A program made the position numbers and the translations under genes. From contig JACRIV010000062.1 of assembly GCA_016220005.1 (NCBI GenBank), positions 1-38,208 on the forward strand: 38,208 nt of DNA, given 5' to 3'. A model generated the notes under the pieces. That model did not search any database and was not told the origin of the DNA. It saw nothing but the letters and a program-made list of their open reading frames with translations. This document shows, in pieces, positions 5,050-11,824 of this stretch; position 1 is the first letter of the stretch, and each line of letters opens with the position of its first letter. Origin of the DNA: Deltaproteobacteria bacterium (GTDB taxonomy: Bacteria; Desulfobacterota; Deferrimicrobia; Deferrimicrobiales; Deferrimicrobiaceae).

Positions 5050-6549
5050 TCACCGCTTGTGACACCGGGAGCAGATCCCCCCCGCCGACTCGTCCACAAC
5101 GAACCGGCGCATCCTGCCGCCTTCGGCCCCGGACCGGGCTTCGATGTGCGGGTTGTGGCAGGTCGTGCAGGTCAGTTTGCCCTTGGCGTCCAGCCGGAAA
5201 GGCTCCGGGATCGACATTTTCGGCTGCACCATGTGATTCACGCCTATCGGGTGCGCCTCCTGCGCGTGGCAGCGCAGGCAGATCATCCTGGTGTTGGAGA
5301 TGAAGGACACCCGCGCCGCCTCTTCGTTGGTAGGGTCGGTCATCGTGTCATGGCAGAACTTGCAGGAGTCCCGCTCGGACATCGCGGAGTGAGGGTTCCG
5401 CCCGATCAGGTCGGACTTGTCGTGGCACCGGAAGCAGATGGCATTGGTCGGGTCCCCCGGCTTCCGCTCCCGCATTGCGACGCCGCTCCCCACCTCGGGC
5501 ATCGGGTTGTGGCAGGTGAGGCAGGTGATCTTTCCGTCCGGGGACAGGGGCAGGCCCGGGCCGGGATGCATGCCGGGGCCGAGCTTGACGAGGATGGGAT
5601 GGCAGGCATCCATCGAGCCGTGGCACGACAGGCAGATCAGGAGGTCGTCCCCCCCGTAGCGTCGGTTATTCCTCATCTCCTCGCGCTTCGTCGAGACATC
5701 GGCGTGGCACCCCCTGCAGCTCGCGGAATCGCTTGCGCCATGGGGGTTCGTGTACCTTCCCTTCTCCAGGAACTCGACATAATTTTTCCGGAGGAAGTGC
5801 AACGTCGCTTCCGTCCCGTGAGGATCGTGACAGGTCCCGCAGGTGACCTCGCCCTTCTTCGTCCGCGGCAGCCTCTCCGGCAGGACGGCCAAGGGGTTCA
5901 CGTTTTGGGGATGGACCTTCTCCTTCACATTGTGGCAGAAGCTGCAGATCTGGACGATCCTCTCCCGGAGCAGGACGGTGGCGGCCGTGTCGCCGGCCTT
6001 GGGCGCGGAGGCATGGCATGTGTAGCATTTCTCGCTCTGCGCCCCGGCCCGGTGAGGGTTCAGGGCGGAGAAGGTCCCGGCGTGACAGTCGAGGCACATG
6101 TCCGTCCGAACGGCATACCTCCCCGTGTCGTATCCCCGCAGGAGGGCGATCTTCGACGATTTGAGATGCACGTCGTGGCAAGTGGAGCAGATCACCTCGG
6201 CTGCCGTGCTCACCGGCAGCCCCTCCGGCAGGTTGCGGTCGGTTTTTCTCTTCACCGGGTGATGGTTCACCTCCGAGGCGCGGTGGCATTCCCGGCAAAG
6301 CTCGACCGGGTCCTTCGCCAGCCCCGACAGCACCTCTTTCCAGGCGGTCTTCCCTCGTTCAGGGACCCTCGCATGGCAATGGGAGCAGTTCATCCCCGCG
6401 TGGGGATTCTCCCTTTCTCCCGTCGGAAAGGCCGGATTTTCGCCGGCCGGCAACGCGACGGGACCCCTGAACAGGACGAGCGAAAGGATTGCGGTCGTAT
6501 AAAGCGGAGCGTAGAAGGCGTGCCGGACGGCATTTCTTATTGCGCCCAT
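5050..6549 (-). CDS. Exported 15-haem c-type cytochrome, about 499 aa
   Basis: A multihaem cytochrome c with 15 CXXCH motifs, in order CSHCH, CRECH, CSTCH, CLDCH, CYTCH, CSFCH, CGTCH, CRGCH, CLSCH, CLTCH, CFRCH, CKFCH, CLRCH, CTTCH and CSRCH. That is about one haem per 33 residues. Five NPH motifs (NPHAGM, NPHRAG, NPHGAS, NPHSAM, NPHIEA) precede or follow haem sites and probably supply distal ligands, as in doubled-CXXCH cytochromes. An N-terminal hydrophobic segment (PLYTTAILSLVLFRGPVAL) indicates Sec export. ATG at 6549 (MGAIRN) is my choice; ATGs at 6567/6570 are alternatives, and longer upstream extensions would overlap the divergent TPR gene. None has a clear SD. It is probably periplasmic or extracellular electron transfer; the partner is unknown. 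No porin or other cytochrome gene is in the window. Confidence 0.93.
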   Translation of the reverse strand: MGAIRNAVRHAFYAPLYTTAILSLVLFRGPVALPAGENPAFPTGERENPHAGMNCSHCHARVPERGKTAWKEVLSGLAKDPVELCRECHRASEVNHHPVKRKTDRNLPEGLPVSTAAEVICSTCHDVHLKSSKIALLRGYDTGRYAVRTDMCLDCHAGTFSALNPHRAGAQSEKCYTCHASAPKAGDTAATVLLRERIVQICSFCHNVKEKVHPQNVNPLAVLPERLPRTKKGEVTCGTCHDPHGTEATLHFLRKNYVEFLEKGRYTNPHGASDSASCRGCHADVSTKREEMRNNRRYGGDDLLICLSCHGSMDACHPILVKLGPGMHPGPGLPLSPDGKITCLTCHNPMPEVGSGVAMRERKPGDPTNAICFRCHDKSDLIGRNPHSAMSERDSCKFCHDTMTDPTNEEAARVSFISNTRMICLRCHAQEAHPIGVNHMVQPKMSIPEPFRLDAKGKLTCTTCHNPHIEARSGAEGGRMRRFVVDESAGGICSRCHKR

Positions 6550-6628
6550 ACGGGGAAATACTATCATCATTCGAAGGAGTGGGACGACAGGTTCTCTCCG
6601 GCCGCAGAGACGCCTGAAGGAGGGCCGA

Positions 6629-7699
6629 ATGTTCAGGCGAATCGTCGTCGCTGGAATTCTTGTCCTTGCCGTGCTCGCGATCCTTCTCCCTTTCCCCTGC
6701 TTCGCCGGCAAGGAGGAAGGCGAGCGGATCTACACGAGCGCCAGGGAACTTCTGTCCGCAGGCGATGCCGCCGGAGCGATACGGCTGTTCGAAAAGGCGA
6801 TCGCCGAATACCCGGAACACGTGGAGGCCCGCTACCACCTGGGCGTGCTCTACTCGGGGAACATCAACACCTACGGCAAGGCGGAGGAGACGTTCTTCGA
6901 GATCCCCGATTTCGCCATGCGCGCCGGATCCGCTGTGCGGGACGACCTCTTCTTCCGCACCGGGCTTGCCCTCGGGAACCTCTACATCAAGAGCGGAAGG
7001 CACGTCATGGCCATCCAGCTCATCCGGAACTTGATCGCCTCCGCCCCGCCCAACGCCCCTCTCGACCGGGCGTTCAACGCCCTCGGCCTCTCCTACTACT
7101 ACGACCGGCTCTACGACGACGCCATCTTCGAACTTCGCCGGGCGATCAAGTTCAACCCGAACAACGTCGATGCGAGGTTCAACCTGAAAACGATCCGGGC
7201 CCGCCTGGAGCATTTCCAGGCCGCCAAGATTTACTCCCGCATGGGCGAGAGGACGGAGGCCATCGCGGAATACCGCAGGGCGATCGAGATCGACCCCCGG
7301 TTCACCGAGGCCCGCCAGCGGCTGGGGGTCGAGCTCCTGCTCGTCGGGAAGCATGCCGAGGGGCTCAAGGAGCTGCGCCGGGCGGACTCGATCTCCACAG
7401 GATACCGCAGGGCCTACGAGATCTGGTACGCAGAGGGGCTGGCGCTTCAGAGCCTGGGAAGGGGCGACGACGCCCTGCACCAGTTCAACCGGGTGATCGA
7501 GTCGAGGCCGAATTTCGCCGCGGCGCACAACGAGATCGGGAAGATCCGCCTCGAGAGGAAGGAATACGACGCCGCCATCGACTGTTTTGCTCGGGCGATC
7601 GGCCTGGACCCGAAGACCGAGTATGCCCGGAACCTCGTGCTGTCCATTTCGAGGAAAGGAACGCTGGAATCCTCTACGGCCCCGGCAAGGCAAGAATAA
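6629..7699 (+). CDS. Exported tetratricopeptide-repeat protein, 356 aa
   Basis: An N-terminal signal peptide (RRIVVAGILVLAVLAILLPF, then CFAGKEEG) is followed by a TPR array spanning most of the protein. Recognisable repeats include AGAIRLFEKAIAEYPEHVEA, YDDAIFELRRAIKFNPNNVD, TEAIAEYRRAIEIDPRFTEA, DDALHQFNRVIESRPNFAAA and YDAAIDCFARAIGLDPKTEY. It probably acts as a periplasmic protein-interaction scaffold. The Cys at the end of the hydrophobic core is not in a good lipobox. ATG at 6629 has a strong AAGGAGGG at 6617-6624. It is divergent from the 15-haem cytochrome gene, with a short (about 60-80 bp) shared upstream region, which makes a functional link possible but unproven. Its 3' end overlaps the convergent DUF3047-like gene by 26 bp. 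Confidence 0.9.
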   Translation: MFRRIVVAGILVLAVLAILLPFPCFAGKEEGERIYTSARELLSAGDAAGAIRLFEKAIAEYPEHVEARYHLGVLYSGNINTYGKAEETFFEIPDFAMRAGSAVRDDLFFRTGLALGNLYIKSGRHVMAIQLIRNLIASAPPNAPLDRAFNALGLSYYYDRLYDDAIFELRRAIKFNPNNVDARFNLKTIRARLEHFQAAKIYSRMGERTEAIAEYRRAIEIDPRFTEARQRLGVELLLVGKHAEGLKELRRADSISTGYRRAYEIWYAEGLALQSLGRGDDALHQFNRVIESRPNFAAAHNEIGKIRLERKEYDAAIDCFARAIGLDPKTEYARNLVLSISRKGTLESSTAPARQE

Positions 7700-10329: not shown

Positions 10330-10992
10330 ATGGCCGTGAGCGAGAAGCACACCATCGCAGTATTGATATCAGGAAGCGGCTCCAACCTTCAGGCGATCAT
10401 CGACGCATCGGAGCGGGGAGAGATCCCCTGCCGGGTCGGGATCGTCCTCAGCAACAAGGAGGACGCCTACGGCCTCGATCGGGCGAAGAAGCACGGGATC
10501 CCCACCGAAGTCGTAAGCCACAAGGAATTCCCTACAAGGGAAGCGTTCGACCGGCGGCTCATCGAGGTCATCCGGAAAAGCGGCGCGGCGCTCGTCTGCC
10601 TCGCGGGGTTCATGCGCGTGCTCACCCCCGTTTTCGTGCAAGCCTTCCCGCACCGGATCCTCAATATCCACCCCGCCCTTCTCCCCTCCTTCCCCGGCAC
10701 GCACGGGCCGAAACAGGCGCTGGACCACGGGGTGCGGTTTTCGGGGTGCACCGTCCATTTCCTCGACGAAGGGGTGGACACCGGCCCCATCATCGTCCAG
10801 GCGATCGTCCCGGTGTACGACGACGACACGGAGGATACCCTCGCCGCCCGGATCCTCGTCCAGGAGCACAAGATCTACCCGATGGCGATCCGGCTCTTCT
10901 TCCAGGGGAAGCTCAAGATCGAGGGGAGGCGCGTCCGGGTCCTGGGAGAACCGAAGATCCCCGAATTCTTCCACCGCAACCCCGACGCCTGA
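10330..10992 (+). CDS. purN: Phosphoribosylglycinamide formyltransferase, 220 aa
   Basis: Transfers a formyl group from 10-formyltetrahydrofolate to GAR in purine synthesis. Visible are the nucleotide-binding loop GSGSNLQAIID, the catalytic Asn/His motif LNIHPALLPSFPGTH, and the Asp-containing HFLDEGVDTGPIIVQ. ATG at 10330 abuts GGAGGGAGG at 10321-10329; a GTG at 10336 is better spaced from that SD, so the protein may lack the first two residues. It is the second gene of purMN. The stop is immediately followed by the long inverted repeat 10995-11204, which may end transcription. Confidence 0.97.
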   Translation: MAVSEKHTIAVLISGSGSNLQAIIDASERGEIPCRVGIVLSNKEDAYGLDRAKKHGIPTEVVSHKEFPTREAFDRRLIEVIRKSGAALVCLAGFMRVLTPVFVQAFPHRILNIHPALLPSFPGTHGPKQALDHGVRFSGCTVHFLDEGVDTGPIIVQAIVPVYDDDTEDTLAARILVQEHKIYPMAIRLFFQGKLKIEGRRVRVLGEPKIPEFFHRNPDA

Positions 10993-10994
10993 GG

Positions 10995-11204
10995 CGCCGA
11001 AATCCGCCCCCCTGCGGGTCGTGCGAGCCGCCGAGACGGGGTGCCCCGAGCGGGGGCCTGAGCGACGAAGCGAGAGCCAGGGAAGGCGGAGCGAGGAGCG
11101 ACGGAGCCGCCGCCCGTCCAGGGATGGACGGGCAAGGCGTCCCCCGGGCGGGGGGTACCCCGTGAGGCGTGACTCGCACCACCTGACGAGGACGGATTTC
11201 GGCG
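10995..11204. repeat. Long imperfect inverted repeat (about 210 bp) between convergent genes
   Basis: The two ends are inverted copies. CGCCGAAATCCG at 10995-11006 matches CGGATTTCGGCG at 11193-11204 perfectly (12 bp). GTGCGAG at 11021-11027 pairs with CTCGCAC at 11173-11179, with imperfect pairing between them. Further inward, 11036-11047 (ACGGGGTGCCCC) pairs 11 of 12 with 11152-11163. Arms are thus about 60 nt each, enclosing a GAGCGA-rich centre. An additional perfect 8-bp hairpin, GCCCGTCC/GGACGGGC, lies at 11112-11133. The element starts 2 bp after the purN stop and ends 11 bp before the ydcF-like stop. It could be a MITE or REP-like element, or a structured bidirectional terminator. No target-site duplication is evident and there is no T-tract. 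Confidence 0.7.
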
Positions 11205-11215
11205 GATTGCGGCTG

Positions 11216-11824
11216 TTACTCCCAGATGAGGAAGAGGCGGTAGGTCCAGTATTTCCAGCCCTCGACGAAGAAGAGGCGCAGCGTGCGCGGGAGGGCGTTC
11301 CTGTCGTTCCAGTCCGAGCGCACGGTAATCACCGCGATGGATACGCCGGGGGGGAGCACGGTGCGCAACGCGAGGCAGGCCCGCGGCATGTGATAGTCGG
11401 CGGTGATCAGGACGATCCGCTCGAACCCCCTGTTCTTCACGACAGTCTTGGCCGAAAAGGCGTTCTCCAGCGTGTTCTCGGACCAGCCCTCGATGTGGAC
11501 ACGGCGGAGCTCCTCGGCGGACAGCGCGGAGTGGCCGGGCAGGACGCGCTCGATCCTGGCGCCTCCTCCCGCGCCCAGGATGTACAATTCCTTCCCCTTC
11601 CCTTCCTTCCAGGCGCGGAATCCTTCGAGAATGCGGTTCTCACCCCCGGTCAGCACCAGGATGGCGTCGGCGGGCGGCCCCGAAGGGACGGGCAGCCTCA
11701 TCGCAAGCAGGTGCGGAATCGCCGCACCGGCGGCCAGGACCAGGATCAGTATGAACAAGGCGGACCGGAGGCCCTTCCTTTTCCGCCGGGCCCCTAGGAG
11801 ATTTTTATCTTGCCCTATCTTCAC
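11216..11824 (-). CDS. YdcF/SanA/ElyC-family (DUF218) membrane protein, 202 aa
   Basis: One N-terminal transmembrane anchor (ALFILILVLAAGAAIPHLLA) is followed by a DUF218 domain: PADAILVLTGGENRILEGFR, ELYILGAGGGA, WSENTLENA and IVLITADYHMPRACLAL. Relatives such as SanA and ElyC act in envelope integrity or undecaprenyl-carrier metabolism, but the biochemical activity is unknown. The only upstream start in frame is GTG at 11824, without a good SD, so the start is uncertain. The gene is divergent from rpmB with a 42-bp shared region that contains a palindrome. The 3' end faces purN across the long inverted repeat. Confidence 0.85.
   Translation of the reverse strand: MKIGQDKNLLGARRKRKGLRSALFILILVLAAGAAIPHLLAMRLPVPSGPPADAILVLTGGENRILEGFRAWKEGKGKELYILGAGGGARIERVLPGHSALSAEELRRVHIEGWSENTLENAFSAKTVVKNRGFERIVLITADYHMPRACLALRTVLPPGVSIAVITVRSDWNDRNALPRTLRLFFVEGWKYWTYRLFLIWE

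Follow-up and report, generated by a model that had tools for sequence, protein, structure and literature searches.

A mobile-like intergenic repeat of Deferrimicrobiaceae that encodes a predicted CsrA-binding RNA and may act as a distributed decoy

Introduction

RNAs that sequester CsrA are known mainly as the products of one or a few dedicated small RNA genes in Gammaproteobacteria, and bacteria with FliW are held to rely on a protein antagonist of CsrA, as far as the accessible parts of the sources go (PMC7652899; PMC11934962; PMC13407953). The portions of the literature available to us describe the high-affinity CsrA/RsmE site as a hexaloop, ANGGAX, which sits directly on a stem and in which N is free (PMC4005645). 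They give the SELEX consensus for CsrA as RUACARGGAUGU, with the GGA in a hairpin loop, and state that CsrB carries about 18 sites (PMC4347634; PMC7652899). In the extracts of the open-access literature on CsrA sites and intergenic repeats, no comparable dispersed CsrA-type repeat appeared among the matches listed.

In this study, we analysed a stretch of 38,208 nt from a member of the Deferrimicrobiaceae (contig JACRIV010000062.1 of assembly GCA_016220005.1; hereafter the window), in which one intergenic gap is filled by a long inverted repeat. Our best explanation of this repeat is that it is a mobile-like intergenic element which encodes a predicted CsrA-binding RNA and which probably acts as a distributed decoy for this regulator.

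Results

The inverted repeat between purN and a DUF218 gene

A first-pass annotation had described a long inverted repeat at 10995-11204 that fills the convergent intergenic gap behind purN, and both the coordinates and the repeat, which is imperfect, were confirmed; the convergent gene is a DUF218 gene. It begins 2 nt past the purN stop and ends 11 nt before the convergent ORF at 11216-11824. The perfect 12-bp ends (10995-11006 and 11193-11204; 15-nt arms match at 93%), the inner matching segment (11-nt arms 11017-11027 and 11173-11183, 91%) and the internal 8-bp hairpin at 11112-11133, with 8 perfect pairs and a six-base loop, were all recovered; this last hairpin can also be counted as 9 pairs round 4, as its first and last loop bases are A and T. 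An inverted-repeat search of the window copy revealed further 21-nt arms at 11036-11056 and 11143-11163, which match at 76%. Folding of both strands, which had been proposed as a check, was run on 10985-11215 and gave z = -6.19 for the + strand and z = -6.10 for the - strand, with 0 of 200 dinucleotide shuffles folding as well on either strand. While the repeat is real, the picture of a single unit did not hold, and the structure is better described as two superposed parts, a 163-nt family core at 11019-11181 and an outer 12-bp stem. The features of the locus are the following.

10330 to 10992, + strand: purN, which we take to encode phosphoribosylglycinamide formyltransferase (Pfam gives formyl transferase, Formyl_trans_N, 1.3e-60); it reads into the element in sense
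10995 to 11006, strand not applicable: CGCCGAAATCCG, left arm of the copy-specific outer stem; the flanks of other copies were not seen to contain it
11019 to 11181, + strand: family core with long stem P1/P2, three-way junction and two hairpins (match to covariance model R1, 141.2 bits, E 1.6e-28, the window copy itself being one of the 31 copies in R1)
11036 to 11056, + strand: 5' arm of long stem P2 (folding, arm match and covariation, helix 3)
11076 to 11087, + strand: hairpin P4, GCC-AGGGAA-GGC, a CsrA-type A-N-GGA-N hexaloop on its stem (in the MFE structure; stem covaries; loop conserved in 45 divergent copies)
11112 to 11133, + strand: hairpin P5, GCCCGTCC-AGGGAT-GGACGGGC, a second CsrA-type A-N-GGA-N hexaloop (not in the MFE structure; loop conserved; stem covaries)
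11141 to 11163, + strand: 3' arm of long stem P2 (folding, arm match and covariation, helix 3)
11193 to 11204, strand not applicable: right arm of the outer copy-specific stem, CGGATTTCGGCG (perfect 12-bp end; flank-pairing test)
11216 to 11824, - strand: DUF218 (YdcF-like) gene (PF02698, 1.1e-13), convergent, with its 3' end towards the element

The MFE structure of the window-copy core (-101.9 kcal/mol) contains P4 and lacks P5, the pair probabilities are 0.73 for P4 and 0.50 for P5, and imposing the consensus fold costs 3.3 kcal/mol relative to the MFE. In these folding models the window copy, or its subfamily in this genome, is a less clear case than the copies of the second genus, represented by genome G010. 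Elsewhere in the window (5050-6711), a multi-haem c-type cytochrome (several CXXCH families) adjoins a MacB/FtsX-type transporter.

Copies, empty site and distribution of the element

A search of the complete genome for other copies, suggested alongside the annotation, was run on the genome of the window (G000, 2.32 Mb) and revealed a multi-copy family, with at least 35 blastn matches to a 214-nt query at E <= 0.001, a count that includes the window copy and partial copies and rests on the scoring of 40 of 81 candidates. The alignment of most full copies is confined to query positions 28 to 177-187, corresponding to about 11020-11179, and full-length copies in G000 are 85-92% identical to the window copy.

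The comparison of the purN flanks in relatives uncovered the empty site that had been looked for. purN was found in 20 relatives, and a convergent DUF218 gene lies on the same piece in 17 of them; in the remaining three the pieces end soon after purN. The core is absent in 17 of 17, where 4-73 nt separate the purN stop from the DUF218 match (some of these matches fall short by a few residues), and a model search of the gap in three of these relatives (L085, L077 and L080) gave nothing significant, with a best E of 0.57. This absence suggests that the insertion is particular to the G000 lineage among those seen. The purN gap of G010 (L085) holds GAGTCGTGCGAGCC, a sequence without a model match that resembles the left end of the core and is perhaps a remnant.

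Covariance model R1 was built from an alignment, A2, of 31 cores from two genera (G000 and G010). Among 24 genomes of the family it matched 33 times in G000, 20 in G010, 12 in G017, 23 in G018, 21 in G019, 5 in G020, 26 in G021 and once each in G022, G015 and G016, and it had no match in the other 14; 122 candidates were scored per genome and the counts are therefore possibly low. An order-level search returned the same 24 genomes. Divergent copies are thus found in further genera of the family, R1 containing no copies from genomes other than G000 and G010, and five further genomes outside the training set carry 5 to 26 copies each. A phylum-wide search with stricter filters, in which 19 candidates were scored per listed genome, found the element in 2 of 148 genomes sampled, G000 and G019, both of the same family, whose other carriers lie outside the sample. 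No blastn match to plasmids or phages was obtained. A Streptosporangiales MAG, the sole match of a pattern scan of the whole collection, was discarded as it has no R1 match at E <= 1.

Several observations were made on the arrangement of the copies. G000 and G010 share five intergenic sites, each beside orthologous genes, at which both genomes have the element and in all of which it points in opposite directions (L018/L055, L026/L061, L027/L042, L019/L059 and L097/L110, the last being partial copies; both flanks are shared in three). Such sites may reflect hot spots, inversion in place or the loss of one copy from an inverted pair. At eight places two copies lie on opposite strands within approximately 530 nt, all of them divergent with their 5' ends facing and none convergent (L143, which equals L181, L151, L144, L145, L158, L186 and L198 in G017-G019, and L011 in G000), and such pairs are possibly a composite unit. 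In the G010 copies L102, L103, L104 and L106, the match to the model spans 211-214 nt and includes an internal insert of about 50 nt.

A conserved fold on one strand

The fold, a long stem leading to a three-way junction with two hairpins, is kept through wholesale replacement of the stem sequence. In A2, which holds 31 of 37 cores (L010, L013 and L015, misaligned by one base in alignment A1, and L008, L025 and L057 were left out), 95.0% of the cells of the 55-pair structure are paired and 21 of the 55 pairs have changed on both sides. Shuffles of A2 had a mean of 11.0 such pairs and 0 of 500 reached the observed 21, and slid controls had 33.7-49.2% of cells paired and 1-9 such pairs. When no structure was imposed, RNAalifold predicted 37 pairs from 40 cores, again 21 of them changed on both sides. 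Outside R1, 40 stretches from eight genomes (of 90 matches there) hold 47 matches at E <= 0.01, and in these divergent rows, which were fitted to R1 and hence to a model that leans towards the structure, 54 of 54 pairs have changed on both sides and 89.1% of cells are paired, as compared with 38-43% when slid.

The element could in principle be a selfish palindromic repeat without function, the structure of which is kept solely by recent copying. The close identity of full-length G000 copies to the window copy is in agreement with this, and palindromes arise readily. However, compensatory changes in every pair among the divergent copies, together with near-invariant loops (see below), mean that recent copying alone cannot explain the structure, and we consider this explanation hardly credible.

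The sense strand folds better than the antisense strand in 76 of 76 copies, with means of -98.8 and -85.8 kcal/mol. G-U wobbles also outnumber A-C mismatches: A2 has 52 G-U cells, of which a single pair contributes 25, and 9 A-C cells, and for 45 rows of A3 the counts are 77 and 26, respectively. Both findings indicate that the functional molecule is the + strand, either as RNA or as single-stranded DNA.

Two hairpin loops of the A-N-G-G-A-N type

Both hairpins are capped by A-N-G-G-A-N placed directly on the stem, and ACAGGGAUGU is present exactly in P4 of some G000 copies. In 45 of the 47 divergent rows (two weak, cut-off rows were dropped), the P4 loop has A in 45, G in 43, G in 45 and A in 45 with N taking all four bases, and the P5 loop has A in 44, G in 45, G in 45 and A in 45 with N taking three bases. 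Since these loops were part of the training data of R1, the comparison was confined to columns with a conservation of 90% or more in A2. The eight loop columns keep an identity of 1.00 in genus g10 (24 rows) and 0.986 in genus g11 (18 rows), as compared with 0.63 and 0.67 for 27 other unpaired columns and 0.71 and 0.53 for 81 paired columns (loop versus other unpaired columns, Mann-Whitney p = 1e-4). Some unpaired columns of the junction are as fixed as the loops, and the RNA may therefore bind something more or something else.

Unconstrained MFE folds, in a count that also accepts a loop whose end A and U pair, contain a pair of such loops in 56 of 76 copies, which leaves 20 of 76 without both, and one loop or more in 75 of 76; antisense copies have such loops in 0 of 76. 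Two loops were seen in 0 of 1486 random stretches of the window (one loop in 4) and in 0 of 1140 dinucleotide shuffles (one loop in 12). The 31 copies of A2 had been found by sequence similarity, independently of the loops, and 21 of them fold with two loops, 9 with one and 1 with none. Covariation, strand bias and freely folding loops strongly support the earlier suggestion that the repeat could be a source of a structured RNA, at present a predicted one. At the level of the family, the element has the repeated ANGGAX hexaloops on stems that mark a CsrA-sequestering RNA; the CsrA reading rests on the family as a whole and is unchanged by the weak P5 of the window copy.

Co-occurrence with csrA and fliW

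Genome G000 encodes one csrA (E 1.8e-22), whose product resembles CsrA chains of solved structure; fliW lies no more than about 120 nt away, and a gene with a flagellin domain is found upstream. csrA is present in 8 of the 24 family genomes, namely in 6 of the 7 with at least five element matches versus 2 of the 17 with none or one (Fisher p = 0.0013), and in 7 of the 10 with at least one match versus 1 of the 14 without (p = 0.0023). There are exceptions. G018 has 23 copies and no csrA or fliW was found in this 320-contig draft, which is 96% complete; G022 and G023 have csrA with one and no element match, respectively; G015 and G016 have one match each and no csrA. G010 has both the element and csrA; neither was seen in the three other genomes of its genus, of which two are incomplete. 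A purN tree covering 21 genomes (G005, G014 and G018, without purN matches, were left out) provides 4 independent contrasts; csrA and the element change together in an average of 3.3 of these and in opposite directions in none (p 0.125-0.25); when genomes with any match are counted, there are 3 supported contrasts and 2.1 go the same way (p 0.25-1). The independent contrasts on this tree are too few for significance.

fliW is found in the same 8 genomes as csrA, which makes csrA and motility inseparable here, and the link could be to motility. This, the small number of contrasts and the conserved junction bases outside the loops would all be compatible with a conserved structured RNA of an unknown class with another partner, the csrA link being a by-product of motility or genome size. 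On the other hand, both loops fit the CsrA motif base for base, free N included, through a complete turnover of the stems. Rfam, too, offers little to such a class: cmscan at E <= 1 found no family in the window region (10900-11300), and at 8 other loci solely a weak match to the cobalamin riboswitch (L162, 1-57, E 0.12, below the cut-off), which lies outside the core match of that locus at 201-351. We therefore regard another partner as quite unlikely. The Rfam models of CsrB, CsrC, RsmY and RsmZ likewise gave no match to the window region or the other loci tested.

Ends and flanks of the element

The outer 12-bp stem of the window copy was not found in the flanks of the other copies read. 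Across 37 copies, the left flank of the core (20 or 30 nt) nevertheless shows stronger pairing to the right flank of the same copy than to those of other copies (p = 1e-4, the floor of 10,000 permutations; p = 6e-4 for 45-nt flanks), which suggests that many copies possess an individual outer stem, owed either to their origin or to selection. Sequence resembling terminal inverted repeats (TIRs) occurs at 13 places in G000, with 0 in a reversed-pattern control, and 7 copies with a core have it on one or both sides; the window copy is without it. Some TIR-like units in G000 have no full core, and in the TIR-like pairs read by eye in this genome no transposon was seen in between. L064, L065, L067, L071 and L072 of G000 are short MITE-like units of this kind, whose termini resemble CTTAGTGCTGCGTTTCATAAATACGGTCACGTATC, a consensus drawn by eye. 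Also by eye, at least L169, L171 and L173 of G021 adjoin a different sequence, which is inverted on both sides of L169, and the ends of the element seem to differ between genera while the core fold persists.

The first-pass annotation had called the repeat MITE- or REP-like, and of this the multi-copy, intergenic and mobile-like character stood, in view of the number of matches, the empty site and the TIR-like ends beside 7 cores; a tie to Y1/RAYT transposases did not emerge. Y1_Tnp is present in 15 of the 24 genomes and is unrelated to the element. A REP/RAYT system was considered and rejected, as Y1_Tnp is single-copy in G000, absent from the element carriers G017-G019 and present in genomes without the element.

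A different view of the same data would be that of a non-autonomous mobile element (MITE- or IS200-like), in which the fold of the + strand is the substrate of a single-stranded-DNA transposase and the loops are its recognition sites, their likeness to CsrA sites being superficial. The multi-copy and patchy occurrence, the TIR-like sequences, which the reversed control lacks, and the copy-specific outer stem are consistent with this, strand-specific folds suit single-stranded DNA as well as RNA, and no promoter is enriched (see below). Against it, the presence of Y1_Tnp does not track the element, the ends seem to vary between genera around a constant core fold, the loops combine a free N with an invariable A, GG and A, which is what CsrA requires, and csrA co-occurs with the element. 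We consider a transposase substrate unlikely, albeit with a real chance of being correct.

Gene context

Genes were called with a caller trained on Pfam-supported genes, and at a tolerance of 25 nt 39 of 40 cores are intergenic; the exception is L008, where a gene start is called inside the element. Relative to the + strand of the core, the flanking genes are arranged -- in 18 cases, ++ in 10, +- in 7 and -+ in 3, with one side unknown in 2. No consistent orientation to the genes reached significance: the right-hand gene is antisense in 26 of 39 (p = 0.053), and both flanking genes are antisense in 18 cases versus both sense in 10 (p = 0.18). With such mixed orientations, transcription from the neighbouring genes would not yield the useful strand of many copies. 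Over 72 copies, neither sigma-70-type promoter patterns upstream of the element nor T-runs downstream of it were enriched.

These data also bear on the proposal that the repeat is a two-way terminator or a transcription barrier between convergent genes. The window copy occupies the gap between two convergent genes and either of its strands folds strongly, in agreement with such a device. However, of the 38 copies flanked by called genes on either side, just 7 have a convergent pair as neighbours, no intrinsic terminator-like site was found in the purN/DUF218 gap, the family has no T-tract, and a hairpin terminator needs no conserved loops or junction. The proposal was therefore abandoned as very improbable.

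Discussion

We hold with moderate confidence that the findings on fold, loops and csrA are best accommodated if the element is a predicted CsrA-binding RNA that has spread in the manner of a mobile repeat. The copies are probably transcribed by read-through, since neither promoters nor terminators are enriched, so that the element would enter RNA mostly from neighbouring genes and, at the window locus, as the 3' UTR of purN. Copies placed antisense are a difficulty for this part of the model. Once transcribed, the two hairpins, side by side at the junction, could hold one CsrA dimer, and dozens of copies might jointly titrate CsrA as a distributed decoy, or else serve as local landing pads for the protein. 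We place a decoy acting in trans ahead of local landing pads because the gene context is inconsistent.

A bolder version of this model, which we put forward tentatively and with less confidence, is that of mobile CsrA sponges. According to this idea, a transposon-like repeat would carry a CsrA-dimer-holding RNA module as its conserved cargo in up to about thirty intergenic copies, and read-through of many loci would jointly set the level of free CsrA. If true, this would be a distributed alternative to CsrB that works alongside FliW; different genera would carry the module within different terminal repeats, and it would dwindle where csrA is lost. It would also join transposable elements to global post-transcriptional control in bacteria with csrA and fliW, give a testable function to an anonymous intergenic palindrome and show that the decoys of a regulator can be copied round a genome.

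Among described repeats, REP and BIME sequences with RAYT are intergenic palindromes present in many copies, sometimes as inverted pairs, and the element resembles them in this; it differs in its length of about 160 nt, its branched covarying fold and the lack of a tie to Y1_Tnp. With MITEs it shares being short, non-coding, multi-copy and intergenic, with an empty site (established for the window copy only) and with some copies between TIR-like ends. Unlike MITEs, the window copy and many others are without TIRs, and the ends seem to differ between genera while the internal RNA fold is kept.

The similarities to the CsrB/CsrC and RsmX/Y/Z small RNAs lie in the A-N-GGA hairpin loops placed directly on stems and in the several GGA sites per molecule, which are suited to CsrA dimers. 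In contrast to CsrB, there are two conserved hairpins per unit and up to about 30 dispersed units, and in contrast to small RNA genes of the CsrB/RsmZ kind, no promoter or terminator of its own was seen when sigma-70-type and intrinsic-terminator patterns were looked for. Furthermore, unlike in CsrB/CsrC and RsmX/Y/Z, the hairpins of the element are set on a three-way junction and a long stem, no Rfam match was obtained and the host has fliW. Similar, too, are the predicted CsrB-like small RNAs of Geobacter sulfurreducens, which, in the part of the report available to us, are GGA-rich RNAs in a host with csrA and fliW in a flagellar operon (PMC11934962). According to the same part of that report, these are three single loci predicted by machine learning (PMC11934962), whereas the element described here is a dispersed repeat with a covarying fold.
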